Positions 71 to 59,659 of a DNA stretch of 64,000 bases are shown piece by piece; within the stretch, counting starts at the first letter, position 1; each line of letters starts with the position of its first letter. The notes under the pieces were generated by a model that saw only the letters and a program-made list of their open reading frames with translations, did not search any database and was not told the DNA's origin. The position numbers and the translations under genes were made by a program. This DNA is from Acidobacteriota bacterium (GTDB taxonomy: Bacteria > Acidobacteriota > Terriglobia > Terriglobales > SCQP01): positions 62,001 through 126,000 of the forward strand of contig SCQP01000020.1 of NCBI GenBank assembly GCA_004299485.1, read 5' to 3'.

Positions 71-2035
71 TTAGCTGCTTCGGTCCTTGAGGATTTCGTC
101 CTCGTCTTTGCCGGAAGCGCTTAGTTTTAGCAGCACGGAATAATCTTCAATCGTCGTCGTGTCGCCTTCAATCTTGTGCGTGGTCACCAACTCGCGCAGC
201 AGCCGTCGCATAATCTTGCCGCTGCGGGTCTTGGGCAGTCCCTCGACCAGCCGCACCTCTTCCGGCCGCGCAAAGGCCCCAATCTCGGTCGCCACCCACG
301 CGCGCAGCTCCTCCGCCAGCTTGGTATCGGCTTGGCTGCTGCCCTTGATCGTGGCAAATACGACCAGCGCCTGGCCTTTGATCTCATCCGGCCGGCCGAC
401 CGCCGCGGCCTCAGCCACCGCCGGATGCTGCACCATCACCGATTCCACTTCCATGGTGCTCATGCGATGCCCGCTGACGTTAATGACGTCATCAACGCGC
501 CCCAGCACCCAGAAATAGCCGTCGGCATCGCGCCGTGCCGCATCGCCGGTGAAGTACAGGCCGGGGTAGCGCGACCAGTATGCCTCCTGGTAGCGTTCCG
601 GGTCGCGGTATAGGCCGCGCAGCATCGAAGGCCACGGCTTGCGGATGATCAGATACCCTTGCTGATTTTCGGCAACGCGCTCGCCTCGCAGATTGACCAC
701 GTCGGCGTCGATGCCCGGCAGCGGCAGCGTCGCCGATCCGGGCTTGGTGGCGACCGCCCCCGGAACCGGCGAAATCAGAATGCCGCCGGTTTCCGTCTGC
801 CACCAGGTGTCCACAATCGGACAGCGGCCGTGGCCGATTACGCGGTGATACCACTCCCACGCGGCCGGCTGGATCGGCTCGCCCACCGAGCCGAGCAGCC
901 GCAGACTTGACAGGTCGTGCTTTGCCGGCAAAGCATCCCCGGCGCGAATAAAGCTGCGGATCGCCGTCGGCGAGGTATAGAAAAGATTGACGCGGTACTT
1001 GGCGATGATCTCCCAAAAGCGGTCCGGCGCCGGGTAATCCGGTGCGCCCTCATACATCAGCGTCGTCGCGCCGGCGGCGAGCGGCCCATAAATGATGTAG
1101 CTGTGGCCCGTCACCCAGCCGATATCGGCCGTACACCAGTAGGTGTCCTCCTCGTGCAGGTCGAAAACCCACTCCATCGTGGCCTGCGCCTCAACCAGAT
1201 AGCCCGCGGTCGAATGCACCACCCCTTTGGGTTTGCCAGTGGTGCCGCTGGTATAAAGCACATACAGCGGATGCTCGCTATCCACTGGCACAGCCTCACA
1301 CTGTGCCGGCGCTTTGGCGATGAGTTCGCTCCATTCCAGGTCGCGCGCCGGATTCATGGTGATGGGGCTGCCGGTGTGCCGGAACACAATCGAGTGCTTC
1401 ACGCCGGGGCAATGCTCCAGCGCCGCATCCACATTCTTCTTGAGCGGTACTTCGCGCCCGCGCCGCCGCCCGCCGTCGGCGGTGATGACAAGCTGCGCTT
1501 CCAGGTCATCCATGCGCGTCCGCAGCGCCTCGCTTGAAAACCCGGCAAACACCACGGAATGAATGATGCCCAGGCGCGCGCAGCCCAGCATGGCCACCGC
1601 CGCTTCGGGAATCATGGGCAGATAAATGATGGCCCGGTCGCCTTTCTTGTATCCCAGATCTGCCAGCGCGCGCGCGAATTGGCACACCCGCCGGTGCAGC
1701 TCGTTATAGGTGAGGATCTGCTGCTCGCCGTTTTCGCCCTCCCAGATCAGCGCAGCCTTGTTGCGCCGCGGTCCGGTCAAATGCCGGTCGAGGCAGTTGA
1801 AGCTGGCATTGGTTTCACCGCCCACAAACCATTGCGCAAACGGTGCCTTCCACTGCAGCACTTTGGTGAAGGGCGTAAACCAATGCAGGCTTGCTCGTGC
1901 GCGGGCACTCCAGAATGCTTCCGGATCGGCCAGCGCCGCGTGCCGTAGTTCATCATAGGCGGCGCTGGTTTTTACATGCGCATTGACAGAAAACCCCTGC
2001 GGGGGCGGATACAGGGTCGAGGCGGCTCCAGCCAT
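71..2035 (-). CDS. acs: acetyl-CoA synthetase (AMP-forming)
   Basis: Converts acetate, ATP and CoA to acetyl-CoA, AMP and PPi in the cytoplasm, the high-affinity route for acetate assimilation. The 654-residue product is the usual length for Acs. It shows the ANL-superfamily phosphate loop YTSGTTGKPKG, the WWQTETGG substrate segment, the GRVDDVINVSGHR hinge and the C-terminal TRSGKIMRR motif; its Lys (about residue 607) is the known site of inhibitory acetylation in this family. A longer frame begins at 2113, but that overlaps the upstream yceI-like gene. I chose the ATG at 2035 because it yields the normal Acs N-terminus and because a TATGAT box lies 6 bases upstream with no Shine-Dalgarno. 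The yceI-like gene is upstream on the same strand, with 40 bp between its stop and this start, but acs appears to have its own promoter. Confidence 0.95.
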   Translation of the reverse strand: MAGAASTLYPPPQGFSVNAHVKTSAAYDELRHAALADPEAFWSARARASLHWFTPFTKVLQWKAPFAQWFVGGETNASFNCLDRHLTGPRRNKAALIWEGENGEQQILTYNELHRRVCQFARALADLGYKKGDRAIIYLPMIPEAAVAMLGCARLGIIHSVVFAGFSSEALRTRMDDLEAQLVITADGGRRRGREVPLKKNVDAALEHCPGVKHSIVFRHTGSPITMNPARDLEWSELIAKAPAQCEAVPVDSEHPLYVLYTSGTTGKPKGVVHSTAGYLVEAQATMEWVFDLHEEDTYWCTADIGWVTGHSYIIYGPLAAGATTLMYEGAPDYPAPDRFWEIIAKYRVNLFYTSPTAIRSFIRAGDALPAKHDLSSLRLLGSVGEPIQPAAWEWYHRVIGHGRCPIVDTWWQTETGGILISPVPGAVATKPGSATLPLPGIDADVVNLRGERVAENQQGYLIIRKPWPSMLRGLYRDPERYQEAYWSRYPGLYFTGDAARRDADGYFWVLGRVDDVINVSGHRMSTMEVESVMVQHPAVAEAAAVGRPDEIKGQALVVFATIKGSSQADTKLAEELRAWVATEIGAFARPEEVRLVEGLPKTRSGKIMRRLLRELVTTHKIEGDTTTIEDYSVLLKLSASGKDEDEILKDRSS

Positions 2036-2041
2036 GCCGCC

Positions 2042-2047
2042 ATCATA
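2042..2047 (-). promoter_or_regulatory. -10-like box for a leaderless acs transcript
   Basis: TATGAT on the minus strand, separated from the acs ATG by 6 bases (2036-2041). No Shine-Dalgarno lies between box and start. The spacing predicts transcription starting at or next to the A of the start codon. It lies just downstream of the yceI-like stop codon. Confidence 0.5.
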
Positions 2048-2075
2048 CCGCGCCGCGCGGGGACCGCGCCGGTCT

Positions 2076-2702
2076 TCAACTTCGCTGCCAATACGTGTCC
2101 CAGCGCAACTCAAATTGGTTCTTGACTTTAATAGCGCCCAGCGCCCGGTGAATGGGCTGAATTCCGTAATCGGTCAGCAGCAATTGCGCCGAACCCCAGA
2201 CGTGAACCACTCCATTCTCGACCGCTACGTGTGTTGGCCAGGCGACCGTGCGCGTCACCCCATGGATGCTGAACGTGCCATGCAGCAAGACGCCCGGGGC
2301 GGCTGCCGTCAGCTCCAGTCCATTGAGCCGCCAGACGATTTCGGGAAACTGTTCGGCGTCGAGTTGATCCGGACCCTCCATGGTCACCCAGATTTCGTGC
2401 CGCTGTTGAGTCGAGCGGTTGGGGTCCACCACCTGCAGTTCTGCCGTGGGCGCTGTCACTATGCCGTGCCAGCTTCCGGCCTCACCCGTGGCCGAGCCCC
2501 GCATCACGCCGGTGTGGACTACGTGGTTGTCAGCAAAGGCGCCCAGCCATCCTGCCTTGCGCAGCAGAATTCCCAGTTGCGAGCGCGAGGCGAGCAGTTG
2601 ATAGCTGCCCGCGGGAATGCTCACCGCCTGCGCCCCGGCGGGGACCGATCCCAGTCCGACCGCCAGAGCCAGCAAAAATACCGAATGCCGGAGGCCTTGC
2701 AT
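2076..2702 (-). CDS. YceI-like secreted lipid-binding protein
   Basis: The 208-residue product starts with a clear Sec signal peptide (positive start, leucine-rich core, cleavage after about residue 25, ...VPAGAQA). The mature part has the YceI/lipocalin-like pattern: an N-terminal PAGSYQLLASRSQLGILLRKAG strand, HTGVMRG, and a late GTFSIHGVTR strand, as expected for a beta-barrel that binds polyisoprenoid-type lipids in the periplasm. Length fits the family (about 190-210). It lies upstream of acs on the same strand; a functional link to acetate is not evident. The ATG at 2702 has only a weak purine stretch in front. The family call is moderate to good; the ligand is unknown. Confidence 0.75.
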   Translation of the reverse strand: MQGLRHSVFLLALAVGLGSVPAGAQAVSIPAGSYQLLASRSQLGILLRKAGWLGAFADNHVVHTGVMRGSATGEAGSWHGIVTAPTAELQVVDPNRSTQQRHEIWVTMEGPDQLDAEQFPEIVWRLNGLELTAAAPGVLLHGTFSIHGVTRTVAWPTHVAVENGVVHVWGSAQLLLTDYGIQPIHRALGAIKVKNQFELRWDTYWQRS

Positions 2703-2723
2703 TCCGCTTGAGACGCGGCACCT

Positions 2724-5171
<2,448 letters not shown>

Positions 5172-10320: not shown

Positions 10321-10347
10321 TTGACGGTTACATAAACGCGCTAGGCT
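10321..10347 (+). promoter_or_regulatory. promoter of the GMC oxidoreductase gene
   Basis: TTGACG (10321-10326) and TAGGCT (10342-10347) with a 15-bp spacer, the second box 6 bases before the ATG at 10354. There is no Shine-Dalgarno, so a leaderless mRNA is predicted. The spacer is a little short for a housekeeping sigma-factor promoter. Confidence 0.45.
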
Positions 10348-11916: not shown

Positions 11917-12141
11917 ATGTGGCAACCCACGACTTACGTGGTGGCCCTCGGCCTCATGCTGCTCAGCATGGTGGCCTGGGGGAGTTGGGATAACACCCAG
12001 AAGCTGGCACGGCATCGCTCGAACGCGGGCACCCAGCGCGGCTGCGCCGCGCGGCCCGCTCTTTCCGTCCGATGGACCGCTGCGCCGGGGACCCAATGCC
12101 CCGGCTCCGCTCGGAGCAGCAATCCGGAGCGTCTACACTAG
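11917..12141 (+). pseudogene. truncated transporter copy 1
   Basis: A 74-residue frame whose first about 31 residues equal the start of the GRP/RhaT-type transporter (first membrane helix) and whose remainder (RHRSNAGTQRG...) is unrelated, low-complexity sequence ending in TAG. The ATG follows the GMC stop by 3 bases. A single helix plus an arginine-rich tail cannot transport, so I treat it as a duplication relic, though it may be translated. Confidence 0.6.
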
Positions 12142-12144
12142 GGC

Positions 12145-12369
12145 GTGTGGCAGCCGACCACTTACGCGGCCGCCCTGGGCCTCATGCTCGTCAGCATGGT
12201 GGCCTGGGGGAGTTGGGATAACACCCAGAAGCTGGCGTGGCATCGCTTGAACGCGGGCGCCCAGCGCGGCTGCGCCGCGCGGCCCGCTCTTTCCGTCCGT
12301 TGGACCGCTGCGCCGGGGACCCAATGCCCCGGCTGCGCTCGGAGGAGCAATCCGGAGCGTCTACACTAG
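12145..12369 (+). pseudogene. truncated transporter copy 2
   Basis: Same structure and length as copy 1, with a GTG start, a handful of substitutions and the same TAG stop 3 bases before the intact gene. Both copies stay open, with the downstream gene in the same frame beyond the stop, so translation through the stop or re-initiation could couple them. Confidence 0.6.
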
Positions 12370-12372
12370 GGC

Positions 12373-13347
12373 GTGTGGCAGCCGACCACTTACGTTGCCG
12401 CCCTGGGCCTCATGCTCGTCAGCATGGTGGCGTGGGGGAGTTGGGATAACACCCAGAAGCTGGCGCGCTGGCGCTTTGAGCTTTTTTACTGGGACTACAC
12501 CTGGGGCATTGTTGTGGCCGCGGTTGTCTTCGGCCTTGCCTTGGGGAACCTGTCCTCGCTGGCGCAAGCCAGCCCGCGGGCGCTGGCGTGGGCGTTCGTG
12601 GGCGGCATCATCTGGAACCTGGGGAACCTGCTGCTGGTGGCCGCCATTTCCATCGCTGGGATGGCGCTGGCGTTTCCGGTCAGCTCCGGCTTGGGCTTGG
12701 TGATTGGCGGCGTCCTGAACTACCTGATCCGGCCGGCTGGTAGTCCGCTATGGCTTTTCGGCGGCATCGCGCTGGTTTGCGGCGCCATGGCCAGCGTGGC
12801 GCTCGCCTACCGCGGCCTGGAACATCTGCGCGGGCACGACCATGGAACCGGCAGCAAGGGAATGACGCTCAGCCTCGCGTGCGGCGTGGTGCTCGGTTTG
12901 TACTATCCATTTGCCGCAAAAGCCATGCAGGGGCCGGGGGCGCTGGGGCCGTATGCGGTCCTGTTCGTCTTCGTCCTGGGGGCGCTGGCCTCAAATTTCT
13001 TCTTCAACGGCTGGTTCATGCGGCGGCCCATCCACGGTGCGCCGGTCACCTGGGCGGACTACGCCCGTGGCGCGTGGCCGGCCCATGTTTGGGGCGTCAT
13101 TGGCGGGGTGGTCTGGGGGATCGGGACCATGGCCAGCTATATCGCCGCCTCGACGTCGTTTGTAGGTCCGGCGACTGCGTATGCCATGGGAGGCGGCAAC
13201 GCCCTGATTTCGGCGCTCTGGGGCGTGTTGATCTGGAAGGAGTTCCGGGGCGGCGACCGGCACGTCGGCCGCCTGCTTGCATTGATGTTCGTCCTCTTTA
13301 TACTTGGCTTAATGGCCATTGCCGTGGCACCCTTAAAGGGCATGTAG
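12373..13347 (+). CDS. GRP/RhaT-type sugar permease
   Basis: The 324-residue integral membrane protein has about ten hydrophobic helices arranged in two halves, beginning with ALGLMLVSMVAWGSWDNTQKL and including GLVIGGVLNYL and AYAMGGGNALISALWGVLIW, as in the glucose/ribose porter and L-rhamnose-H+ symporter branch of the drug/metabolite transporter superfamily. It would import a sugar across the inner membrane. The start is GTG at 12373 by comparison with the two upstream truncated copies; no good Shine-Dalgarno is visible, and it probably relies on translation from the preceding frames or the GMC gene. The GMC oxidoreductase upstream may act on the imported substrate. Confidence 0.8.
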   Translation: MWQPTTYVAALGLMLVSMVAWGSWDNTQKLARWRFELFYWDYTWGIVVAAVVFGLALGNLSSLAQASPRALAWAFVGGIIWNLGNLLLVAAISIAGMALAFPVSSGLGLVIGGVLNYLIRPAGSPLWLFGGIALVCGAMASVALAYRGLEHLRGHDHGTGSKGMTLSLACGVVLGLYYPFAAKAMQGPGALGPYAVLFVFVLGALASNFFFNGWFMRRPIHGAPVTWADYARGAWPAHVWGVIGGVVWGIGTMASYIAASTSFVGPATAYAMGGGNALISALWGVLIWKEFRGGDRHVGRLLALMFVLFILGLMAIAVAPLKGM

Positions 13348-13350
13348 TGC

Positions 13351-13356
13351 TAGGAT
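13351..13356 (+). promoter_or_regulatory. -10-like box for a leaderless DGQHR gene transcript
   Basis: TAGGAT, 6 bases before the ATG at 13363, directly after the transporter stop. There is no Shine-Dalgarno. The box suggests transcription separate from the transporter gene. Confidence 0.45.
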
Positions 13357-17081: not shown

Positions 17082-17120
17082 GCGGCAAGTATATACGTAC
17101 TATAGAAACAGGAGGCGGTC

Positions 17121-19630: not shown

Positions 19631-19636
19631 ATTATA
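19631..19636 (-). promoter_or_regulatory. TATAAT box for a leaderless pruA transcript
   Basis: A consensus TATAAT ends 6 bases before the pruA ATG. The weak purine run AGAGA sits where transcription should start, so it cannot serve as a leader ribosome-binding site if the box is used. Confidence 0.55.
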
Positions 19637-20357: not shown

Positions 20358-21662
20358 TCAGGCTGCTGCGCGCAGGTGGGCGGGCGGGCTGGCGAGGGTG
20401 CGGGCGAGATTGTAGGCGAAGAGCGTGAAGGCGGTGATTTCGAGGCCGGCGGAAAACGGCAGCCAGCTCCAAGCGATGGGCCACCAGCCGGGATAGGCCA
20501 GCAGTTCGCCGCTGACGCGCAGCAGGCAGCCGATTTCCAGCGACGCCAACGAAATGAACATGAGTGCGGGGCTGTGGAGCAGCTTCATGCCCGCGAAGGC
20601 AGGAAGGACGCGCTGGCCAATGGTAAGAACCATGGTAGCGATGAAGCCGACCGTGAACGCGTGCCGTCCAGCGCCGGTCAGACCGGTGTTGGCGGGCGAG
20701 AAGGCGGACCAGAGGCCGAGAGCGGCGGATACGACCAGCCATCCGTAAGCGAAACGCAAAAACCAGGGAAATGTGGGATGGATATTTTGCGTCTTTGCCT
20801 TGGCAATTGCCGGGCGGAAGATATGTAATCCGGTGACCGCAATCGCGGCTGCCGCTGCCCACAGGAATGCGCCCGGTAGCCACCAGCCGGCGAGCATGGC
20901 GATGGCGCCTGCAGCCAGAATCGGCGCCAGAGCGCGCGGAACCCAATCTCTGGACGGGCGCAGGCCGGCAAAGACAGGCAGCCAGCGGGTCGAAAAACCA
21001 AAGACGAAGGGCGCCAAAAACGCCCAGGTCATCAGCTCGACCATGCGGCGATCCCACCAGGGTGGGAATGCGGCCGAGGCGCCCCATCCGGCCTGATGGA
21101 TCGCGCCGGCGAGGTTCACAACGAGCGTCAGGCCAAAGCCAAGTGCGCCAGTGAGCACCAGCATGACCCAGCCGGGCAATGGCTCGCGCGGCTGGCCAGG
21201 TACGCGCTTGTGGGCTTTGCGGACAGTGGTCTGAAAAATGCCGTAGGCGAAAAGTTCGAGCGCGGCCGACGCGGGCAACAGAAGGCGCCAGTGCCAGTCG
21301 TAGACGCCGGTGAACCAGCGCATGCCGATGGCGCCAGTCCAGACCGCCCAGCAGGTCCAGGCCCAGGCAAAGTTCACACGCGTGCGGTGGCGGCGGGTGA
21401 GCGAATGCAGTCCGATGCCAAGAATGAAGCTGCCCACCCAGCCGTAGACTTCAGCATGGCCGTGAGCTTGCAGCCAGGTGGCGGTGACGGCAAAGGGAGC
21501 GTGCTGCTGGCTGATTGCAAACAGGTTCCAGAGACCGAGAAAGCTGCCCGGGCCAAGGAGATAAACCAGCCCGGAGCTAATGAACGCGGTCAGCAGCCGC
21601 GCCATGCGCTGCTCGTAGCGGCGCAGTTGCTCGGCTGTGGAATCAAGGTTTGCTGTTGCCAT
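20358..21662 (-). CDS. nnrS: NnrS-family haem/copper membrane protein
   Basis: The 434-residue polytopic membrane protein has about twelve hydrophobic segments with conserved histidines and the NnrS-type signatures WLQAHGHAEVYGWVG, RWLPVFAG and GRHAFTVGFIATMVL followed by RVLPAFAG. NnrS proteins are induced by nitric oxide and protect cells against nitrosative stress. I take the ATG at 21662 because it gives a normal soluble N-terminus (MATANLDST); a frame open further upstream overlaps ric. The gene overlaps the end of ric by 20 bp on the same strand, so the pair forms an operon with one Crp/Fnr-type control site upstream. Confidence 0.85.
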   Translation of the reverse strand: MATANLDSTAEQLRRYEQRMARLLTAFISSGLVYLLGPGSFLGLWNLFAISQQHAPFAVTATWLQAHGHAEVYGWVGSFILGIGLHSLTRRHRTRVNFAWAWTCWAVWTGAIGMRWFTGVYDWHWRLLLPASAALELFAYGIFQTTVRKAHKRVPGQPREPLPGWVMLVLTGALGFGLTLVVNLAGAIHQAGWGASAAFPPWWDRRMVELMTWAFLAPFVFGFSTRWLPVFAGLRPSRDWVPRALAPILAAGAIAMLAGWWLPGAFLWAAAAAIAVTGLHIFRPAIAKAKTQNIHPTFPWFLRFAYGWLVVSAALGLWSAFSPANTGLTGAGRHAFTVGFIATMVLTIGQRVLPAFAGMKLLHSPALMFISLASLEIGCLLRVSGELLAYPGWWPIAWSWLPFSAGLEITAFTLFAYNLARTLASPPAHLRAAA

Positions 21663-22424: not shown

Positions 22425-25097
22425 CTAGTGCGCCAGCGCGCGCGGCCAATTGGTCACCACCGTTATACCGGTGACCGCGCCGGCGCTGTTGGCGGGTTCG
22501 CCGAGCAGGAACGCTTTGCCGTCTGGAAAGGGTGAGTACAACGCCTGGTAGCCGCCGTAGTAGGCTGAGACCTGGCGGGCGGGCATAGCAAACAGCACTT
22601 GCGGCGCGGAAAAGGCGAAAGCGCCGCTGTGCGCGGGCAGGACGTGGACTTGCATGAGTTGCTGGCCCGATTGGTAGTACAGATCTTTGCCGTCGTGCGA
22701 CCAGATGGGACTGTTGCCGTTTGTGGGCGAAATCTGCCAGCGGCTGCTGTTGGGAGGGTTGGGCATTACGAACACGTCCGCTGCTTCCGGGCGCGCGATC
22801 TCGGTGGAGTAGGCGATCCAGTGCCCGTCAGGTGAAAACTGCCCATAACCGGCGCCGGGCTGGAGCATCTGATCGGGAACGGATGGCCGCCCGGTGGGTG
22901 ACAACGTTCGCAAGTGAAGATCGTAGTGCGACCCGTTCAGAGTGGAAAACAGCAGCAACTTTCCGTTGGGCGACAGGCTATGGGGCGCAGCGTAAAGGGA
23001 CTGCGTCAGTTGTTCGGCGGCGCCAACGCCATCGGTGCGCTTGCGGTACACATCGATCACACCGCCCGGCGCCAAACCGTAATAGAGCCACTGACCATCA
23101 GGCGACCACGCCTGATTTTGGTACTGCCCCGGTGCGAAGGTGAGACGGCGCGGAGCGCCGGTGGCAGCGCTCATCAGCCAGATGGCGTCGGCTTTCGCGT
23201 CGGAATCCACGCGGCTGGCTGAAATCGTCTTGCCATCGGGCGAGAGTGACCAGCCCAGATAGCGTGCGGGCGCGCCGATGGTGCGCATGACTTTTCCGCT
23301 CCGGTCCACGACCACAAGTTGCGTGAGTGGCTGACCGGATTGATCCCAAGCCAGCAGTCCGTTACCCGCGGTGAGCGCCAATGCGCCGGTGGCGCCTGCC
23401 AGTCCCATCGGCATCAGCGGGACAGCCAGCGAGCGTGGTGTGCCGGTTGTCTTGCCGCTGCGCCAGTCGAAGGGTTGTGCCGTCAGGCTGCCATCGAGAG
23501 AATACAGCAGGGATCCGTCGGCGTAGATCACCTGGGATTCTAATTTCGGCACACCGGCAACTACGTGTGGCGTGCTATCGGCCAATGACGCCTCGAGCAG
23601 CGTGCCGTCGTCCTCGTGCGCGTTAAAGCGCAGAAAGATGAAGTGCTTGCCGTCGGGCAAAAACTGTGGCCAGCGGTCCGTGCCGCCTACGGCAGTGCCC
23701 GTACTGGCAGTCGCAGACGTGCCGCCCTGCACCGACATCTTCAGCAGTGATCCCGTGGGTGCGGGCTGATAAACGATCATGTCGCCCGCCCCCCAGGTGG
23801 CGCCGCGAGCAACTTGTACCGGGCTCGACTCCAGCGACTGGACAGCGCCGCTGGCCACATCCATCACCGCCAGACCGGTGCTGGTGAAAAAGCCGAGGCG
23901 CGCGCCATCGCGCGACCAGAACGGCCACTCAGAGCCGATTGTGCCTGGCAGCGGGCGGGCATCGAGCGCACCCATGTGCCGCAACCAGAGTTGATCGACG
24001 CCAGTGCGGTCACCGGCGACGTAAGCCATTTTGGTTCCGTCGGGCGAGAGTGCTAAGCCGCCGCCAGGCAGGTCGCCACCGGTGGGTGCAGGAATGCTGA
24101 AGCGAACCAGGGCTGGAATGGTAGGCGCGGGCGGACGGGCGAAAAAGTAGACCAGCAGGCCGCCAATGACCAGGCCCGCAACGCCTACCGCCGGCGCCCA
24201 CCACCCATGACGGCGGCGGGGCGCGGGCAGCGCGGCCGCCTGCATCGAGGTGGAACCGCCGAGCGCGGCGAGTGCGAATTCGAGATCGCGTGCGGACTGA
24301 AAGCGCGCGGTAGGGTCTTTTTCCAGGCAATGATCGAGCACACGCTGCAAGGCGGGATCGATGACGGCAGCGGCCGCTGGCTCTTCTTTCAGCACCGCCG
24401 ACATGGTTTCGACGGCCGTAGCCTTCTGAAAGGCGCGCCGGCCGGCGACCATTTCGTACAGAATCGCGCCCAGCGCAAACAGATCCGAGCGGGCGTCGGC
24501 GGCTTCGCCGCGCACTTGTTCAGGCGCCATGTAGCCGGCCGTGCCGAGCACCGAGCCGGCGCTGGTTACCTCGCCCGCCGCGACCGTCACGGCATCGTCA
24601 CTGACCGGGGCAGTCACTTTCGCCAGGCCGAAATCGAGAATCTTTGCCTGACCGCCGCGGGTTAGGAAAATGTTTTCCGGCTTGAGGTCGCGATGGACGA
24701 TGCCCCTGGCGTGTGCCGCGGCGAGGCCGCGCGCGACCTGGGCGGCGATTTCGATGGCCTTGCGTGCCGGCAGCGCGGAGGGAGGCGTGAGCCGTTCGCG
24801 CAGCGTTTCGCCCTCGAGCAACTCGGTGACCAGATAGGGCGTGCCCTCGTGAACGCTGAAGTCGTACACGCTCAGAATGTTGGGGTGGTTCAGTTGCCCG
24901 GCCGCGCGCGCCTCGGTCTCGAACCGGCGCAGCCGTTCGGCATCGCGCGCCCACGCTGCGGGCAGGATCTTGATGGCCACTTCGCGGCCGAGGCGCGGAT
25001 CGCGGGCACGGTAGACCTCACCCATGCCGCCGGCGCCGAGCGCGGCGATGATTTCATAGGGGCCAAAGCGGGTTCCCGGGGAGAGCACAAGGGGCAT
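22425..25097 (-). CDS. transmembrane Ser/Thr protein kinase with C-terminal propeller repeats
   Basis: An 890-residue paralogue of the kinase at 14511-17081. Kinase motifs: GAGGMGEVYRARD, VAIKIL (Lys43), GIVHRDLKPENIFL (Asp137), ILDFGLAKV (Asp155), GYMAPEQVRG. A membrane helix (WAPAVGVAGLVIGGLLVYFF) follows at about 300-325. The outer part shows PD40-type blades: LSPDGTKMAYVAG, WSRDGARLGFF, FLPDGKHFIFLRF, LSPDGKTISASR, WSPDGQWLYYG and FSPDGHWIAYS. It should signal an extracytoplasmic cue to cytoplasmic targets by phosphorylation. The ATG at 25097 is the last that keeps the complete glycine-loop region. It ends 5 bp from the ric operator. Confidence 0.9.
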   Translation of the reverse strand: MPLVLSPGTRFGPYEIIAALGAGGMGEVYRARDPRLGREVAIKILPAAWARDAERLRRFETEARAAGQLNHPNILSVYDFSVHEGTPYLVTELLEGETLRERLTPPSALPARKAIEIAAQVARGLAAAHARGIVHRDLKPENIFLTRGGQAKILDFGLAKVTAPVSDDAVTVAAGEVTSAGSVLGTAGYMAPEQVRGEAADARSDLFALGAILYEMVAGRRAFQKATAVETMSAVLKEEPAAAAVIDPALQRVLDHCLEKDPTARFQSARDLEFALAALGGSTSMQAAALPAPRRRHGWWAPAVGVAGLVIGGLLVYFFARPPAPTIPALVRFSIPAPTGGDLPGGGLALSPDGTKMAYVAGDRTGVDQLWLRHMGALDARPLPGTIGSEWPFWSRDGARLGFFTSTGLAVMDVASGAVQSLESSPVQVARGATWGAGDMIVYQPAPTGSLLKMSVQGGTSATASTGTAVGGTDRWPQFLPDGKHFIFLRFNAHEDDGTLLEASLADSTPHVVAGVPKLESQVIYADGSLLYSLDGSLTAQPFDWRSGKTTGTPRSLAVPLMPMGLAGATGALALTAGNGLLAWDQSGQPLTQLVVVDRSGKVMRTIGAPARYLGWSLSPDGKTISASRVDSDAKADAIWLMSAATGAPRRLTFAPGQYQNQAWSPDGQWLYYGLAPGGVIDVYRKRTDGVGAAEQLTQSLYAAPHSLSPNGKLLLFSTLNGSHYDLHLRTLSPTGRPSVPDQMLQPGAGYGQFSPDGHWIAYSTEIARPEAADVFVMPNPPNSSRWQISPTNGNSPIWSHDGKDLYYQSGQQLMQVHVLPAHSGAFAFSAPQVLFAMPARQVSAYYGGYQALYSPFPDGKAFLLGEPANSAGAVTGITVVTNWPRALAH

Positions 25098-25129
25098 TAT
25101 AAGCGGTAAAATGGCGGACGGGCGTGGAG

Positions 25130-26010: not shown

Positions 26011-26016
26011 ATTGTA
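26011..26016 (-). promoter_or_regulatory. -10-like box close to the Crp/Fnr start codon
   Basis: TACAAT on the minus strand, 5 bases (AAGGA) before the ATG at 26005. AAGGA could serve as a Shine-Dalgarno but touches the start codon, so a leaderless or nearly leaderless mRNA is more likely. Confidence 0.4.
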
Positions 26017-32097: not shown

Positions 32098-32103
32098 ATT
32101 CTA
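32098..32103 (-). promoter_or_regulatory. -10-like box for a leaderless mtaB transcript
   Basis: TAGAAT on the minus strand, 7 bases before the GTG start at 32090. No Shine-Dalgarno is present. This supports GTG 32090 over any longer reading. Confidence 0.4.
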
Positions 32104-32111: not shown

Positions 32112-32164
32112 TTGACAGCGTGGGGCTTTTGTATAATTATTCTTATGATGAATAATTATTCTAT
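32112..32164 (+). promoter_or_regulatory. argC promoter with two ARG-box-like operators
   Basis: TTGACA (32112-32117) and TATAAT (32132-32137) precede the ATG at 32145 by 7 bases, predicting a leaderless argC mRNA; the 14-bp spacer is short. Two AT-rich palindromes stand out in GC-rich DNA: TGTATAATTATTCT (32130-32143), covering the -10 box, and TGAATAATTATTCT (32149-32162), inside the first codons. The second matches the ARG box core TGAAT-WWWW-ATTCA except the last base. Their spacing is 19 bp. An ArgR/AhrC-type repressor would block RNA polymerase here. Confidence 0.6.
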
Positions 32165-35040: not shown

Positions 35041-35046
35041 TACCAT
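35041..35046 (+). promoter_or_regulatory. -10-like box for a leaderless MerR-type gene transcript
   Basis: TACCAT ends 7 bases before the GTG start at 35054. No Shine-Dalgarno is seen. The region just upstream (35020-35045) is AT-rich relative to its surroundings. Confidence 0.35.
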
Positions 35047-44146: not shown

Positions 44147-44152
44147 ATTGTA
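44147..44152 (-). promoter_or_regulatory. -10-like box for a leaderless lyase transcript
   Basis: TACAAT on the minus strand, 8 bases before the ATG at 44138. No Shine-Dalgarno lies between. The short distance leaves no room for a tnaC-type regulatory leader. Confidence 0.4.
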
Positions 44153-44533
44153 GCGCCGGGCGCACATCTATTGACTGGCGCAGCTTTCGGCGTGGCTGGG
44201 CCGCGCCACCCGCTTGACGCGCGGCCAGGCTGGAGTCCCCTGGAGCCCCAGCCCGGCTGCTCCCCTGCCTAGTTGTTTGCAGGGTCGGGCCGCCCCTGCA
44301 TGGGTCTGGTTTTGTTCTCGCCGGCTACGTCCTCGGCAGCTGGGAGCAGTGGTTGCGGGGAGACATCTGGTGCACGGCTGTGGAGTTATTCTCATGGCCG
44401 TAGCGCTGGCTGATCCGAGCTTCGCCGCAGGCGCTCACCCACTTTGAAATACCAGTTCCAGGATGATCGTGAGCCGGTGGTGCAAACGCGGGTGAACGGC
44501 TAGGCCGGATGAAGGCCGGGGCCTGAATACCTG
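44153..44533. other. intergenic region without a supported gene
   Basis: About 380 bp between the divergent lyase and RHH/PIN genes. It holds several GC-rich self-complementary stretches (for example CCCTGC...GCAGGG around 44260-44290) and no frame that looks coding. It contains no recognised IS end or tRNA. It may include the distal control regions of both flanking genes. Confidence 0.5.
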
Positions 44534-44547
44534 TTTTACGGTAAACT
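44534..44547 (+). promoter_or_regulatory. operator/-10 box of the RHH-PIN operon
   Basis: TTTAC-G-GTAAA (44535-44545) is an inverted repeat that overlaps TAAACT (44542-44547), a -10-like box 6 bases before the antitoxin ATG. An antitoxin dimer bound here would block the promoter. The halves equal those around the AbrB-PIN promoter near 20340. Confidence 0.45.
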
Positions 44548-44553: not shown

Positions 44554-44805
44554 ATGAAAACCACGGTGGATCTGCCGGACGATCTCATGATCGAGGTCAA
44601 GGTGGCAGCGGCGCGGCGACGGTGTACCCTGCGGCAATTTTTCGAGCAAGCATTACGCCGCGAAGCGCACATCGGCCCGCCGAAGCCGAAAAAGCCGCGC
44701 CCCTTCAAGTGGCACACTTATCCTGGAGGATTGGCACCCGGCTTCGACGTCGCGAATCGCGAAAGGATGTATGAATGGTTCGCCCGAGAGCTCGGAGAAA
44801 AGTGA
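44554..44805 (+). CDS. ribbon-helix-helix antitoxin (VapB-type)
   Basis: The 83-residue protein starts MKTTVDLPDDLMIEVKVAAA and RRRCTLRQFFEQAL, the RHH (Arc/MetJ) DNA-binding pattern, followed by a proline/lysine linker and a C-terminal part (GFDVANRERMYEWFARE) that should bind the PIN toxin. It overlaps the toxin gene by 4 bp. A leaderless mRNA and autoregulation through the TTTAC-G-GTAAA repeat are predicted. Confidence 0.85.
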   Translation: MKTTVDLPDDLMIEVKVAAARRRCTLRQFFEQALRREAHIGPPKPKKPRPFKWHTYPGGLAPGFDVANRERMYEWFARELGEK

Positions 44806-45227
44806 TCGCGATCGACACCAACCTGCTGGTGTACGCAGCCGGCCAGACCTCGCCGCAGCATGAAGCGGCACAGGCGGCGATCGAGCAGGCGCGTTCGCAT
44901 CCCGAAGGTTGGGGTGTACCCTTCCCGGTCATCGCCGAGTTTTGGAGCGTGATCACGGGACGCAGCGCGGGAGCGCGACCGGCCACACCGGCCGAGGCGG
45001 CGTGGATTTTGGCTGATCTGGGCGCCGCCGGAGCGCAACTCTGGTTTCCGACTCCAGGAACCGAATCGGCATTGCGCGATTTGGCCAGAAAACTGGATGT
45101 TCGCGGCGCCCGCATTTTTGACCTGCAGATCGCGCTCATTGCGCGCGAGAACGGGGCGCGCGAATTGTGGACGCACGATGCCGGCTTTATGCCGATTCCC
45201 GGGCTGCGGCTGCGCGACCCGCTCTAA
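44802..45227 (+). CDS. PIN-domain toxin (VapC-type)
   Basis: The 141-residue product begins with GTG (GTGA overlap with the antitoxin stop) and reads IAIDTNLLVYAAGQTSPQH (first PIN Asp), FPVIAEFWSVITG (Glu), RGARIFDLQIALIARENG (Asp) and LWTHDAGFMPIPGLRL (final Asp). All four acidic positions of the PIN nuclease fold are present. The preceding longer frame (from 44775) is rejected because the coupled GTG gives the conserved N-terminus. Confidence 0.87.
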   Translation: MIAIDTNLLVYAAGQTSPQHEAAQAAIEQARSHPEGWGVPFPVIAEFWSVITGRSAGARPATPAEAAWILADLGAAGAQLWFPTPGTESALRDLARKLDVRGARIFDLQIALIARENGARELWTHDAGFMPIPGLRLRDPL

Positions 45228-45231: not shown

Positions 45232-45341
45232 AGCCAAACCAGCGTTGGTGTCATCCGCTCCGGGCGGATGCGTGCGGCTTTTCCTGATGTCAAAGCTGCA
45301 AGCGGACTGTTCCGCCGGGCTACAGCGGGGCTGGTTTGGCT
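45232..45341. terminator. inverted repeats between convergent genes
   Basis: AGCCAAACCAGC (45232-45243) is the exact complement of GCTGGTTTGGCT (45330-45341), enclosing a smaller hairpin CATCCGC/GCGGATG near 45250-45270. It lies between the PIN toxin stop and the stop of a convergent small membrane protein gene. A role in ending transcription on both strands is likely, though T-runs are short. Confidence 0.45.
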
Positions 45342-45527
45342 TTACGCGCTTGGCTTCTTGAAACGCGCCGACGCGGCGCCCCAGGCGATGCCGAAGCAGA
45401 TGCCGACGATCACCAGGCCGAAGATCTGCTGCGTGCCGAAGGCACCGGTGCGGAAGCGCGGAATGAACTCCGCCAGGCCAATCACGCCGATGGCCAGCGG
45501 CAGCAGGATGGCCCACCAACTCTTCAT
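45342..45527 (-). CDS. small two-helix membrane protein
   Basis: The 61-residue product is nearly all membrane: WWAILLPLAIGVIGLAEFIP and IFGLVIVGICFGIAWGAA, with a basic end (RFKKPSA). Its ATG shares one base with the stop of the ClC channel gene (TGATG), so it is translationally coupled to it. It could be an accessory peptide of the channel; I know no such family. Confidence 0.65.
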   Translation of the reverse strand: MKSWWAILLPLAIGVIGLAEFIPRFRTGAFGTQQIFGLVIVGICFGIAWGAASARFKKPSA

Positions 45528-47914: not shown

Positions 47915-47945
47915 GTAGCTAGGATACTGCTTGTTTCTGCGTCGA

Positions 47946-52642: not shown

Positions 52643-52648
52643 AGCATA
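52643..52648 (-). promoter_or_regulatory. -10-like box for a leaderless BNR-protein transcript
   Basis: TATGCT on the minus strand, 6 bases before the ATG at 52636. No Shine-Dalgarno is visible. The box sits in the 25-bp gap after the PIN toxin gene. Confidence 0.4.
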
Positions 52649-52661: not shown

Positions 52662-53099
52662 TCAGGGGGCCAGCACTTCCGCAACGCCCTCGGCTCCCAG
52701 CGCCTCCAGCCGCCGGTCGAAGGTCAGCAGCCGCCCGCCCTTGCGCCGCGCCAGTTCCAGCAGATAGGCGTCGTTCACCCGGCGGTGTCCCATCACGCGC
52801 TCGAAAGCTCGATGACGACTGGCATCGCCCACGTCCGGCAGGTCAGACCAGTACCGATGGCGTGGATCGGCCGTCATGCTGCCCAGGACGCCCAAGGCCG
52901 TAGGGGCTGATTGCGGCAGGCCCACGACCGCAGCCACCATCGACAGCCGCACAAACGCCAGTTCTGTAATGGCACACGTAACCCAAATCTGACCGGTGAG
53001 TGCTGCCTCGGCGGCGAGGTGAAATTGATGGCTTGGCCACGCGAGCGCCAGCAGCACGTTCACGTCCAGCAGCAGCGGATCGCTAGTAGCCTTCATCAT
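52662..53099 (-). CDS. PIN-domain toxin (VapC-type)
   Basis: A 145-residue PIN protein: DPLLLDVNVLLALAWPSHQFH (first Asp, DVNVLLAL class), CAITELAFVRLS (Glu), RRVNDAYLLELARRKGG (Asp) and LLTFDRRLEAL (last Asp). The DVNVLLAL...TFD form belongs to the VapC/Mtb-like subgroup. Two ATGs stand in tandem (53099 and 53096); both overlap the end of the antitoxin gene, by 17 or 14 bp. Third intact PIN toxin of the window. Confidence 0.87.
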   Translation of the reverse strand: MMKATSDPLLLDVNVLLALAWPSHQFHLAAEAALTGQIWVTCAITELAFVRLSMVAAVVGLPQSAPTALGVLGSMTADPRHRYWSDLPDVGDASRHRAFERVMGHRRVNDAYLLELARRKGGRLLTFDRRLEALGAEGVAEVLAP

Positions 53100-53328
53100 C
53101 CAGATAGCGCTCGATCCGGCTCGCGGGGATGATTGGCGCGTCTGGAGGTACATCAAAGGTCGGCCACTTCCATTCCCCCGGCTTGCGCTTTTTCGGCGCC
53201 GCCGGCTGCTGCTTAATTCCGCGCCGCGCCAGCTCGGAGAGCACCTTGCCCAGCCTCTTGCCGGAGGCGCGCGACAGGTGCATGGCGGCTTCGTATACGT
53301 CCTGGTCCAGCGTTACCGTCGTCCTCAT
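53083..53328 (-). CDS. ribbon-helix-helix antitoxin (VapB-type)
   Basis: The 81-residue protein starts MRTTVTLDQDVYEAAMHLS and continues GKRLGKVLSELARRG, a ribbon-helix-helix DNA-binding domain, then a proline/lysine linker and a C-terminal toxin-binding arm (PASRIERYLDDEGY). I prefer ATG 53328 over an earlier start at 53385 because it begins the RHH strand exactly and a TATCAT box lies 6 bases upstream. It is divergent from an M28 peptidase gene, sharing its promoter region. Confidence 0.87.
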   Translation of the reverse strand: MRTTVTLDQDVYEAAMHLSRASGKRLGKVLSELARRGIKQQPAAPKKRKPGEWKWPTFDVPPDAPIIPASRIERYLDDEGY

Positions 53329-53334: not shown

Positions 53335-53344
53335 ATGATACACT
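53335..53344. promoter_or_regulatory. overlapping divergent -10 boxes (antitoxin / M28 peptidase)
   Basis: Minus-strand TATCAT (53340-53335) lies 6 bases before the antitoxin ATG; plus-strand TACACT (53339-53344) lies 7 bases before ATG 53352 of the peptidase. The hexamers share 2 bp. The two start codons are only 23 bp apart, so both mRNAs should be leaderless and the two promoters cannot be occupied at once. Confidence 0.5.
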
Positions 53345-53351: not shown

Positions 53352-54371
53352 ATGTTTCGTGCCCTGAGCTCAATTTTCGCCGCACTGGTCATTTCGAGCT
53401 GTGTTTTCGCGCAAACTCCAGCCTCTTCGGCTGCGCAAAATCCCGGCGCCGCTTGCCGCACCTGCATCGAGGCACACGAGCAATTTCTGGCGAGTGATGC
53501 GCTCGAGGGGCGCGGCAGTGGCACGCGCAACGAGTTACTGGCGGCGACTTACATCGCGAGCGAGCTGCACGTCTACGGCATCGCGCCTGCCGGCGATCGG
53601 GGCGGGTACATCGAGATCGCGCCCGGCTATCCCAAAGACAAGCCCTGGCGGCAGGCCACTCCTGACCTTGGCACAACGGCGAATGTGGTTGGCGTTCTGC
53701 GTGGAACCGACCCGAAAGCCAAGGTACTGCTGCTCACCGCGCACCTGGATCACCTCGGCATCATTCCCAGCCGTCCTTATCAGGGTGATGATCTCTATAA
53801 CGGCGCCGATGACGATGCCAGCGGTTGCACGGCGGTGTTGGATCTGGCGCGCATGCTGGCGCTCGGTCCGCGGCCGCGCCGGACGGTGTACTTTGCCTTC
53901 TTCGGCAGCGAGGAAGATGGCGGCTTCGGCGCCCGCTATTTTGTAGCCCATCCGCCCGTACCACTCCAGCAGATGTTTGCCAATATCGAGTTCGAGATGA
54001 TTGGCTGGCCCGATTCCAAGGTTCCCGCGCATACGCTCTGGCTCACGGGTTGGGACCGGAGCAATCTCGGGCCGCACATGGCCGCCGAAGGCGCCCACCT
54101 CGTGAGCGACCCGCACCCAGCGCAGCGTTTCTTCTGCCGCTCCGACAACATCAATCTTGCCTACGCCGGTGTCGTGGCACAGACCGTATCCAGCTTTGGT
54201 ATGCAACCGATGTATCACCGGCCAGACGACGATGTCGCGCACCTGGACTTTGGTCTCATGACCGCCTCGATCACGTCGATGATCAAGCCAATTCGAAACC
54301 TGCTCAACTCCAGCTTCGTACCCACTTGGAACGCAGGCGGGCAGCCCCGGCGGGGGGAGCGATGTCATTAA
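53352..54371 (+). CDS. secreted M28-family metallopeptidase
   Basis: A 339-residue aminopeptidase-like enzyme with signal peptide (MFRALSSIFAALVISSCVFA) and zinc-site landmarks: LTAHLDHLG (His, with Asp two residues later), GADDDASGCTAVLDLAR (bridging Asp), FGSEEDGGFGARYF (Glu-Glu), a ligand Asp region in the FEMIGWPDS segment and HRPDDDVAHLD (final His). It should release N-terminal residues from peptides in the periplasm or outside. An ATG at 53346 is in frame, but ATG 53352 is better placed relative to the TACACT box and starts the signal peptide cleanly. The protein is much shorter than, and only distantly related to, the M28 enzyme at 27951. Confidence 0.85.
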   Translation: MFRALSSIFAALVISSCVFAQTPASSAAQNPGAACRTCIEAHEQFLASDALEGRGSGTRNELLAATYIASELHVYGIAPAGDRGGYIEIAPGYPKDKPWRQATPDLGTTANVVGVLRGTDPKAKVLLLTAHLDHLGIIPSRPYQGDDLYNGADDDASGCTAVLDLARMLALGPRPRRTVYFAFFGSEEDGGFGARYFVAHPPVPLQQMFANIEFEMIGWPDSKVPAHTLWLTGWDRSNLGPHMAAEGAHLVSDPHPAQRFFCRSDNINLAYAGVVAQTVSSFGMQPMYHRPDDDVAHLDFGLMTASITSMIKPIRNLLNSSFVPTWNAGGQPRRGERCH

Positions 54372-57220: not shown

Positions 57221-59144
57221 CCGCGCCAAAAAACTCGACGACGGCGTCACGTTGCGCGGTGCGCGGAAACGGAGGCAGGCTGGCGAGGAAGGTGCGGCCG
57301 TAGGGCTTGCTGGTGATGCGGCGATCGAGGACGGTGAGCACGCCGCGGTCGCGCGTCGAGCGGATGAGCCGCCCTAAACCCTGCTTCAGCGTCAGCACTG
57401 CCTCCGGAATCTGAAATTCCGTGAATGGGTTGCGGCCCTCGTTCCGCAACAGGGCAATGCGAGCGGCGATAACGGGGTCGCTGGGCGAGGCGAAGGGCAG
57501 CCGGTCGATGATCACCAGACTCAACTGCTCGCCGGGCACATCCACACCCTGCCAAAAGCTGCTCGTCGCTACCAGCACCGCGCCGGGCGTCGCACGGAAG
57601 CGCTCCAGCAAGAGATTCCGCGGCGCCGTGCCCTGGACCAGCAGCGGATATTCCATCCGGCCTGCCAGCAGCTTGGCGAAGGCCTCCATCTGCCGCAGGC
57701 TGGTACACAGTACAAACGCCCGGCCGCGCGAGGCCTCGATCAACTTGATGATTTCCTCACCCGCGGCCGCCGTGAACTCGGGTGCGTTTGGTTCGGGCAG
57801 GTGTTCGGGCAGATAGAGCAGCGCCTGGCGCTCGTAGGCGAACGGTGATGCGACGATGCACTCGTGCGCGTGCTCCAGACCGAGCCGCTGCCGCATGTAG
57901 TCGAAGTTCTCCTCAACCGTCAGCGTGGCTGAGGTGAGAATCACCGTGTCGGTCGCCTCAAACAAAAGCTCGCGGATGCGGTCGGCCACCTGAATCGGCG
58001 AAGCCTGCACGAACACGCCCCGGCCGCGCCGCTCGACCCAGTACACCACGCCTTCTTCTTCAGACTCCATCAGGTAGGCGAGCTTGCTGCGTGCCTCGGC
58101 CAGCCGCCGCAGGCTGACGTGAATCTCTTCTGGCTTGTCGTCGATTGCCTCCAGGCCGCTGGCGATGTAGTCAACGCCGTTCATGAAGCCGTCGTAGAGT
58201 TCCTCGTGATCGATCAGGAACTTCTCGCGCTCCGTCAGCGGCGTGCGGCCTTCTCCTTTGGCAAGCGCAAGAAAAAACTTCTGAGCCGCGATCCGCCAGT
58301 GCTCGATGCGTTGCTGCAGTTCGGGCGACGTGTGGCCGCTGCTGCGCAATGTGATGGCGACGTCGCGCGCCAGCTCTTCGATCTGATGGCTGCTGACCGC
58401 GATACCAAAGTACTGCGAAGCGGCGCTTTCCAGTTCGTGGGCCTCGTCGAAGACAACGGCTTCATAGGGCGGCAGAACGCCGGGCAGGTCCTGGCCCTTG
58501 AGCACGAGGTCGGCAAAGAATAAATGGTGATTCACGACCACCAGGTCGGCCTCGGATGCGCGCTGTCGCAGGCGCGTCAGAAAACAGTTTTCATATAGCG
58601 GACACTTCGAGCCGGTGCAGCTTTCCTTGCGGGCGCTCAGCCGGTTCCAGAGCGGTGAACTTTCCGGCAGGAAATCCAGCTCCGCCTGATCGCCGGTCGG
58701 GCTGGTCTCGGCCCATTGCCGGATGCGCCGGTACTGTTCCAGCTCCTCCAGCGCGAGCAGCGCGGGCTGGACTTCGAGTTCACGAATCTTATGCAGGCAG
58801 GCATAATTCTGCCGCCCCTTGACGGTCACGACGTTGAGCTCGCGCCCCAGAGCTGCCGCCAGCAGCGGCACATCCTTCTGAACGAGCTGCTCCTGCAGAT
58901 TTTTGGTGCCCGTCGAAAGCAACACTCTGCGCCCGCTGAGTAGCACCGGCAACAGATAGGCGAGCGTTTTACCGGTTCCGGTTCCGGCCTCGACCAGCAG
59001 ATGATGCCGCTCGCGCAGCGCCAGCGCGACCTCCTGCGCCATATCGAGCTGGCCCGGCCGCTGTTCATATGCCGGGTGAGCCCTCTGAAGCAAGCCCCCG
59101 CGCCCGAAAAATTCGTAGAGCGGCGACTGTGCGGTTGAGGTCAT
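57201..59144 (-). CDS. ATP-dependent DNA helicase, DinG/XPD-like
   Basis: The 647-residue superfamily-2 helicase has Walker A in EAGTGTGKTLAYLLPVLL, the DEAH box VFDEAHELES, an iron-sulfur-type cysteine set between motifs Ia and II (CLHKIRE, then CTGSKCPLYENC), TSATLTVEENFDYM (motif III), SFWQGVDVPGEQL (motif V) and the final motif QGLGRLIRSTRDRG. This is the DinG/YoaA form, unwinding D-loops, R-loops or stalled forks 5' to 3'. There is no exonuclease domain. TACACT lies 5 bases before the ATG. It is divergent from an ACP-like gene with overlapping -10 boxes. Confidence 0.9.
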   Translation of the reverse strand: MTSTAQSPLYEFFGRGGLLQRAHPAYEQRPGQLDMAQEVALALRERHHLLVEAGTGTGKTLAYLLPVLLSGRRVLLSTGTKNLQEQLVQKDVPLLAAALGRELNVVTVKGRQNYACLHKIRELEVQPALLALEELEQYRRIRQWAETSPTGDQAELDFLPESSPLWNRLSARKESCTGSKCPLYENCFLTRLRQRASEADLVVVNHHLFFADLVLKGQDLPGVLPPYEAVVFDEAHELESAASQYFGIAVSSHQIEELARDVAITLRSSGHTSPELQQRIEHWRIAAQKFFLALAKGEGRTPLTEREKFLIDHEELYDGFMNGVDYIASGLEAIDDKPEEIHVSLRRLAEARSKLAYLMESEEEGVVYWVERRGRGVFVQASPIQVADRIRELLFEATDTVILTSATLTVEENFDYMRQRLGLEHAHECIVASPFAYERQALLYLPEHLPEPNAPEFTAAAGEEIIKLIEASRGRAFVLCTSLRQMEAFAKLLAGRMEYPLLVQGTAPRNLLLERFRATPGAVLVATSSFWQGVDVPGEQLSLVIIDRLPFASPSDPVIAARIALLRNEGRNPFTEFQIPEAVLTLKQGLGRLIRSTRDRGVLTVLDRRITSKPYGRTFLASLPPFPRTAQRDAVVEFFGAVSSAAH

Positions 59145-59149
59145 AAGCC

Positions 59150-59159
59150 AGTGTAAAAT
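59150..59159. promoter_or_regulatory. overlapping divergent -10 boxes (helicase / ACP-like gene)
   Basis: Minus-strand TACACT (59155-59150) lies 5 bases before the helicase ATG; plus-strand TAAAAT (59154-59159) lies 8 bases before the ACP-like ATG. The hexamers share 2 bp, exactly as in the pair at 53335-53344. Only 23 bp separate the two start codons, leaving no room for leaders. Confidence 0.5.
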
Positions 59160-59167
59160 GAACGTTT

Positions 59168-59659
59168 ATGGCCAAGCCACCGTCATCGAAAGCCTCCAAG
59201 CACAACGGCAAGCCTGCCAAAACCGTACGGGCCGGCGAAAACGGCGCCAAAACACCCAAGAGTGCCAAGAACGGGAAGGATGGCGGTGCAAAACCAGCCC
59301 CAAAGTCCACGCCGGCGGTCAAAAACCAACCCGCTCCCCCCGCCAAGGTGGCCAAAGCTTCCAAGCCGGGAGAAAAGAGACCGCGCCAGCAGACCGAGCT
59401 CGAGGGCAAGCTGATACACATGATCGCCGAAGAGATGGCGATTGAAGAGGCGGAACTTACTCCCGACGCTTCTTTCCGTGAGGATCTCAATCTCGATGAA
59501 ATCGATATCGCCGAGTTGCTCATGCAGGCGGAAGCGCAATTTGGCGTGCATCCTTTTAATGAGTCCGACTGGGAAGCATGTGGGACCATCGGCGAGTTTC
59601 TCGTCCTGGTGAGCAAGCGCGTGGAAGCCAAGCGCAGCCGCAAGGGCGGGAGAGCCTGA
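59168..59659 (+). CDS. acyl-carrier-protein-like domain with Lys/Ala-rich tail, no Ppant serine
   Basis: The 163-residue protein has an N-terminal 80-residue low-complexity arm rich in Lys, Ala and Pro (KTPKSAKNGKDGGAKPAPKS type), similar in composition to histone H1 tails. The C-terminal domain (about 80-150) has the four-helix pattern of acyl carrier proteins: IAEEMAIEEAELTPDASF, DLNLDEIDIAELLMQAEAQF and TIGEFLVLVSKRV. In canonical ACPs the second helix begins G-x-D-S-L-D; here the serine position is Glu111 (LDEID), so it cannot carry phosphopantetheine. It heads a three-gene row with a membrane protein and an NHL protein, divergent from the helicase. A scaffold role, perhaps DNA-bound through the basic arm, is speculation. 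Confidence 0.8.
   Translation: MAKPPSSKASKHNGKPAKTVRAGENGAKTPKSAKNGKDGGAKPAPKSTPAVKNQPAPPAKVAKASKPGEKRPRQQTELEGKLIHMIAEEMAIEEAELTPDASFREDLNLDEIDIAELLMQAEAQFGVHPFNESDWEACGTIGEFLVLVSKRVEAKRSRKGGRA

Follow-up and report, generated by a model that had tools for sequence, protein, structure and literature searches.

What is signalled by a hexamer of the form TANNNT placed a few bases in front of a start codon? This question is raised by a stretch of 64,000 nucleotides from an Acidobacteriota bacterium of the order Terriglobales (assembly GCA_004299485.1, contig SCQP01000020.1, positions 62,001 to 126,000 of the forward strand), referred to below as the window. The original prediction was that sixteen lead genes of the window carry this hexamer, here called the box, 5-8 bases before the start codon in place of a Shine-Dalgarno (SD) sequence, and that it is a promoter box giving leaderless starts. 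All sixteen hexamers are found in the sequence, each at its gene and spacing. The analysis of the surrounding genome makes it highly probable that they are sigma-70-type -10 elements located at the start codons, giving predicted leaderless mRNAs.

The window is part of an assembly of 3.3 Mb in 22 contigs, which is 98.8% complete. Around half of this genome was sampled as stretches, amounting to 1.6 Mb outside the window and 1.66 Mb with it. Genes were called by two home-made programs that rely on coding statistics and the type of the start codon and use neither the box nor the SD sequence. The position of a box is counted from its first T relative to the start codon, with a main bin of -11 to -14, and a number in brackets after a hexamer denotes the bases between it and the start codon. 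For the second caller, the controls are shifted places of four positions each, starting at -16, -21, -26, -31 and -41. The first caller absorbed argC into a spurious upstream extension and missed mtaB, and both faults were mended by the second; the gene just before the pruA-like gene is called by the first and not by the second.

The box is concentrated at one distance from the start codon. With A and T each at 17.7% in the first 864 kb sampled, the expected rate of TANNNT is about 0.5% per position, as had been assumed, and the genome-wide peak that the prediction called for is present at -12 to -14 in the half-genome sample. Among the 637 lead genes called outside the window by the second caller, 115 have the box in the main bin, in comparison with 33, 27, 30, 15 and 20 at the five shifted places. 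The first T is located at -12 in 51 of the 637 genes, at -13 in 32, at -14 in 24 and at -15 in 15, and the counts for the single positions from -16 to -39 range from 2 to 18. The mode is a first T at -12, which makes the initial base of the start codon the +1 position. The signal is also present in genes lying close behind a same-strand neighbour (39/455 boxed vs 7-14 at shifted places) and in all called genes outside the window (179/1241 vs 29-59). The box share outside the window is 18% for lead genes and 14% for all genes, or about 14% and 11% net of background. At internal in-frame ATG codons, the box is found in 27 of 3841 cases. When any ATG or GTG within 30 codons of the start called by the first caller is admitted, 161 of its 641 lead genes are boxed, compared with 48-66 at six shifted places.

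These counts bear on the possibility that the starts in the window were picked to fit the boxes and that the pattern is chance. The choice is indeed wide, with 65 combinations of TANNNT(5-8) and ATG or GTG in the window, 32 of which open frames of at least 60 codons, and the Phd-like fragment described below is such a weak choice. However, starts called blind to the box carry it in 12 of 48 genes of the window (0-3 at shifted places), as they do in the rest of the sample. The peak, together with the shuffles described next, refutes chance for the sampled genome, and its overall probability is close to nil, with the reservation that a given gene of the window may have its box by chance. Boxes are not clearly more frequent in the window than outside it (Fisher p = 0.06 for 12/48 vs 179/1241).

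A different explanation does without a promoter: the box would represent A+T-rich, weakly structured DNA or mRNA at the starts of a G+C-rich genome, and thus a feature of translation. It is consistent with off-peak TANNNT upstream of genes being above the expectation from base composition (19 of 339 lead genes at -21 to -24). However, dinucleotide shuffles of the 40-base upstream pieces (200 runs) give 20.2 +/- 4.3 boxed genes of 637, with a maximum of 32 vs the observed 115, which already disfavours it. With the first caller, TANNNT precedes 112 of the 641 lead genes, whereas ATNNNT of the same composition stands at the same place in 24. Two further composition controls, TNNNAT (61/641) and ANNNTA (53/641), were dropped because they overlap the box in the forms TATNAT and TANNNTA. 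The peak spans three to four bases, and the bases inside and upstream of the box follow the -10 pattern. In the 167 genes outside the window with the box at -12 to -14, position 4 is A in 47% and position 5 is C or A in 84%, and G stands at -2, two bases upstream of the box, in 57% vs 38% for TANNNT elsewhere. The commonest forms are TAAACT, TACACT and TACAAT. A -10 element would be expected to show such preferences, whereas A+T richness in general would not, which leaves the explanation without a promoter highly improbable. The TGN test for an extended -10 element gives 35 of 167 boxes vs 51 of 375 elsewhere (p = 0.04), and the start codons behind the boxes are 138 ATG, 25 GTG and 4 TTG vs 802, 218 and 54 elsewhere.

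The peak, its mode at -12 and the -10-like base preferences support the promoter reading that was originally proposed, and published cases suggest how such a promoter would act. The hexamer would be the -10 (Pribnow) element of a promoter of the housekeeping sigma-70 type, and transcription would begin at the start codon itself or no more than about two bases away. The resulting mRNA would have no leader, and the ribosome would enter via the 5'-terminal AUG or GUG instead of an SD sequence. Other genes of the genome carry an SD sequence, and many have neither signal. From the published cases we infer all three of these properties of the box genes, namely the promoter activity, the 5' end of the transcript and the mode of translation.

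The boxes could also be real promoters from which transcription starts inside a coding region predicted too long, the true start codons being located downstream. The start codons are indeed predictions, and in the case of the helicase gene of the window the second caller places the start at 59042 vs 59144 in the original prediction. For the ACP-like gene next to it, both callers give 59420 vs 59168. Displaced starts would, however, blur the peak, and the distance of the box to the predicted start is fixed; orthologous starts can also have the box at the same distance. Displacement of the starts is accordingly a very unlikely explanation.

The position, specificity and enrichment of the box are joined by its partial conservation. 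Orthologues were collected by tblastn, and the start nearest to the aligned N-terminus was taken as the orthologous start. The box is found there in 12 of 34 pairs for boxed genes vs 8 of 84 pairs for unboxed genes (p = 0.002), and by gene it is found in 6 of 17 boxed vs 7 of 71 unboxed (p = 0.016). A control at -31 to -34 shows no effect (0/4 vs 3/114). An earlier run, with less of the genome and without the paralogue filter, gave 16/30 vs 2/30. One example is the helicase gene, whose box is kept in all four same-genus orthologues (TAAACT, TAGACT, TAAACT and TACACT) in differing flanking sequence; it is left out of the table of 34 and 84 pairs, which took the start of the second caller. Other window genes have boxed matches as well. 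The sole orthologue match of the DndB-domain gene, in G008 (L129), has TAAAAT(6), the same-genus match of the mtaB-like gene (L128) has TAAATT(6), and TATCAT(6) stands at the match of the M28 gene, from G004 (L114). The box is found in three of eight matches of the pruA-like gene, as TACTAT(6), TATAAT(7) and TATAAT(6), and in one of three of the BNR/Sortilin-type gene (L118, TACAAT(7)).

The acs gene was followed over a wider range of organisms. Its closest named match, at 70% identity, is in a metagenome-assembled Acidobacteria bacterium, and the other matches, at 61-66%, are by their titles all from Acidobacteria (Bryobacterales, Solibacter-like and group 1/3 among them) except for one from Ignavibacteriales. 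Of 46 acs loci, 22 were inspected, comprising 14 acidobacterial ones (L041-L047, L049-L051, L076, L078, L079 and L082) and 8 of other phyla. Six of the 14 have the box 6-8 bases before the start and two have a TANNNT at spacing 3 alone; the eight loci of other phyla have no box at spacing 5-8.

The spread of the signal was assessed by TATAATN6ATG in comparison with the same pattern read backwards, the totals over several genomes being summed by hand. This genome has 14 forward matches to 1 backward match; 14 genomes of its family, itself among them, together have 102 to 15, and 27 genomes from another family in the same order have 130 to 38. In gene-called samples, boxed lead genes number 9 of 51 in pieces of genomes of the genus (0-4 at shifted places), 5 of 53 in G009 (0-3) and 7 of 66 in G029 (1-4). 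A scan of the phylum with TATAATN{1,22}ATG, which gives 52 vs 18 for its control in this genome, was not used, its places deriving from G153, G193 and G168 alone. A first scan of genome contigs for relatives, with the window gene 20358-21662 as the query, found no relative. The samples suggest that the box signal is more frequent in the genus than in its neighbours, in a comparison of small samples with genus pieces chosen for matching the window.

Several observations weigh against the reading of the boxes as leaderless promoters. A -35 element is no more frequent ahead of the boxes than elsewhere (24 of 167 vs 58 of 375); a slight excess in a first set (23 of 106 with at least 4 matches vs 14.5% of non-box genes) was gone in the larger one. 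The gene starts are predictions by home-made callers and not curated annotation. Conservation is partial, with 22 of the 34 orthologue pairs of boxed genes being without a box, and the control at -21 to -24 shows a weak effect of its own (2/7 vs 4/111, p = 0.04). In small samples from other genera of the family, little or no peak is seen, for example in G007 (4/95 boxed, 0-4 at shifted places) and in G005 (8/129, 1-7); these two and G017 (6/55, 3-5) are all near their controls. At six of the 14 acidobacterial acs loci, an SD-like core stands in place of the box. The predicted mode of starting thus differs between lineages: at this one gene, some acidobacterial lineages have a -10 box where others have an SD-like sequence.

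The last point of this kind concerns the relation of the box to the SD sequence. The original prediction held that two start classes coexist, the genes without a box having SD sequences. The coexistence stands, since SD cores have a peak of their own in this genome, at -9 to -12, but the exclusivity is weaker than was proposed. Among the 637 lead genes, 113 have the box alone, 130 an SD core alone, 2 both and 392, the majority, neither. An SD core is thus present in 2 of 115 boxed vs 130 of 522 unboxed lead genes; other hexamers at the same place, however, can exclude it too. In five of ten such hexamer classes the SD core is as rare, at 0-4% (ATNNNT 0/22, TTNNNT 0/21, TCNNNT 0/25, TGNNNT 1/26, CANNNT 1/36), and in the other five it is commoner, at 12-29% (AANNNT 5/26, GANNNT 9/31, TANNN[ACG] 6/50 and two broader classes with 33/243 and 10/67). 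The box and the SD sequence compete for the same bases, so their exclusivity is confounded by position, and it was set aside as evidence for two classes. Genes with predicted leaderless-type starts are one of at least three gene groups in the genome. A 16S rRNA, sought in the assembly for its anti-SD sequence, was not found there. The AbrB-like gene at 20312 has AAGGAG; its name, as well as RHH below, is a label taken from the original prediction.

For the individual genes of the window, Pfam matches back 13 of the sixteen, the two RHH-like genes and the Phd-like fragment having none. On the minus strand, TATGAT (2042-2047) precedes acs (start 2035; ACAS_N/AMP-binding) by 6 nt, TATAAT (19631-19636) precedes the pruA-like aldehyde dehydrogenase gene (19624; Aldedh) by 6 nt, and TACAAT (26011-26016) precedes the Crp/Fnr regulator gene (26005; cNMP_binding/HTH_Crp_2) by 5 nt. 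The GTG of the mtaB-like gene at 32090 (UPF0004/Radical_SAM) lies 7 nt behind TAGAAT (32098-32103), and divergent from it, on the plus strand, TATAAT (32132-32137) is located 7 nt before argC (32145; Semialdhyde_dh). The minus strand further carries TACAAT (44147-44152), 8 nt before a beta-eliminating lyase gene (44138; Beta_elim_lyase), and TATGCT (52643-52648), 6 nt before the BNR/Sortilin-type gene (52636; matched in Pfam). The weakest case, also on this strand, is TATCCT (47921-47926), 6 nt before the Phd-like fragment of 45 codons at 47914. On the plus strand, TAGGCT (10342-10347) and TAGGAT (13351-13356) each stand 6 nt before their genes, a GMC oxidoreductase gene (10354; GMC) and the DndB-domain gene (13363; labelled DGQHR in the original prediction and matched in Pfam). 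TACCAT (35041-35046) lies 7 nt before the GTG of a MerR regulator gene (35054; MerR_1), and TAAACT (44542-44547) lies 6 nt before a small RHH-like gene (44554), with a PIN-domain gene (44802) downstream. The remaining four boxes belong to two divergent pairs.

The description of all sixteen as lead genes does not hold for five of them, which lie 15-40 bases behind a same-strand gene according to the first caller: acs (40 bases), the DndB-domain gene (15), the pruA-like gene (26), the Crp/Fnr gene (24) and the BNR/Sortilin-type gene (25). Three boxed genes had been missed. TATACT (17088-17093, minus strand) is located 6 nt before a Ser/Thr kinase gene (17081; Pkinase), and TATAAT (25096-25101, minus strand) 7 nt before the GTG of a second one (25088; Pkinase). 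The callers favour an ATG at 25097 for the second kinase, which is without a box; with the GTG at 25088, its N-terminal length equals that of the kinase at 17081. The third, TACACT (12362-12367, plus strand), stands 5 nt before the GTG of a permease-like gene (12373; Ureide_permease), which has GGAG at 15 nt besides the box.

Some features of the surroundings can be added. The start region of the permease-like gene, including the box, is repeated almost identically some 228 bases further upstream (window 12120-12390). G+C-rich dispersed hairpin repeats of about 90 bases are found at 12020-12115, 12245-12345, 44170-44303 and 45232-45350, with 19, 17, 25 and 8 matches, respectively, in the 1.66 Mb, self included. 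The first two are copies of each other, and the matches of these two lie almost wholly outside called genes. The pairs of RHH-like and PIN-type genes at 44554-45227 and 52662-53328 resemble toxin-antitoxin modules, with a box before the first gene in both; the PIN domain was checked in Pfam for 44802-45227 alone.

The two divergent pairs are arranged back to back with start codons 24 bases apart. At 53335-53344, TATCAT (minus strand, 53335-53340) precedes the RHH-like gene at 53328 and TACACT (plus strand, 53339-53344) precedes the M28 gene at 53352 (Peptidase_M28); one TA is common to both boxes (ATGATACACT). At 59150-59159, TACACT (minus strand, 59150-59155) of the helicase gene at 59144 (Helicase_C_2) and TAAAAT (plus strand, 59154-59159) of the ACP-like gene at 59168 (PP-binding) likewise have a TA in common (AGTGTAAAAT). 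Judged on sequence alone, both pairs have the geometry of opposed overlapping -10 elements, with predicted start sites 7-25 bp apart. This geometry had been noticed before the testing, and the test data include the window. In 200 divergent pairs from the 1.66 Mb, boxes are present on both sides in 17 start combinations (16 pairs), compared with 1 to 6 for two control motifs and two shifted places. The form with a shared TA accounts for three of the 200 pairs, including 53328/53352; the helicase pair, missed by the caller, would be a fourth. Across five genomes of the genus, two patterns of fixed spacing find 9 and 6 sites, and their backward control none. Five of these 15 sites are flanked on each side by coding-like frames of at least 81 codons; four of the five lie in this genome, and the other ten sites may be chance. 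When 136 genomes from the order's other family are scanned, the first pattern is found at 116 sites and its control at 89 (p = 0.07), with no clear excess; for the shared-box pattern, nine further genomes from the own family give 2 vs 1. As neither family shows a clear excess, no order-wide claim is made for the shared box. The orthologues of the helicase gene keep the box and not the overlap, which is unconserved there.

A tentative proposal, which we regard as doubtful, is that the genus has a small class of divergent pairs in which one symmetric -10 element (ANNNTANNNT) makes a leaderless mRNA each way, in mutually exclusive bursts. The start codons of such pairs would be 23-24 bases apart, and the shared promoter would be the entire intergenic region, leaving no separate leader, operator or ribosome-binding site. 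The bursts would be mutually exclusive since either RNA polymerase would be in the way of the other. If the pairs are real, few regulatory regions that serve two genes would be smaller than theirs.

Bidirectional promoters with two opposed overlapping -10 elements are described in two papers, with start-site distances of 18, 10 and 23 bp being common in E. coli (PMC10268837, PMC12825309; the 23 bp distance is among the common ones in PMC12825309). Unlike these promoters, the predicted start sites here coincide with the start codons and the promoter would fill the entire intergenic space. Among titles and abstract openings, no paper on leaderless divergent or bidirectional promoters was found, and the symmetric -10 box shared between back-to-back genes 23-24 bases apart may be new as a side point.

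The box itself has published counterparts. In Deinococcus-Thermus, TANNNT shortly before the open reading frame (ORF) acts by experiment as the -10 region of leaderless mRNAs (PMC12340547). As in this genome, the box class exists there beside a class with ribosome-binding sites. An extensive leaderless transcriptome is also reported, by title, for Mycobacterium tuberculosis, in a paper that contains the term TANNNT (PMC3898074). Both belong to other phyla, and the evidence differs in kind: the Deinococcus-Thermus motif, present on average at about 30% of ORFs, was tested experimentally and the transcript 5' ends of M. tuberculosis were mapped by sequencing, whereas the starts described here are read from sequence only. 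Most toxin-antitoxin transcripts are reported to lack a leader (PMC8485053), and the same is predicted here for the two small RHH-like genes. For Acidobacteria, a search by title and abstract opening over part of the literature found no paper on mapped transcription start sites.

The closest comparison is with Zheng et al. 2011 (PMC3160421), which describes TANNNT-led leaderless genes with the first T about 12 bp upstream of the start. These were found in three of three Acidobacteria genomes, at an average of 13.3% of genes (9.7-19.4). The present genome, of another acidobacterium, is the same in kind, with a peak at -12 and an excess over dinucleotide-preserving shuffles. Its net share of about 11% of genes fits the published average, and together with the same signal this makes it ordinary in kind. 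Leaderless-type starts are thus already reported for Acidobacteria, and the pattern seen in the window is true and not new in kind. For annotation, gene starts in this lineage can be better called if a -10-box model is used in addition to the Shine-Dalgarno model, and a well-sampled acidobacterial genome is added to a pattern that was published from three.

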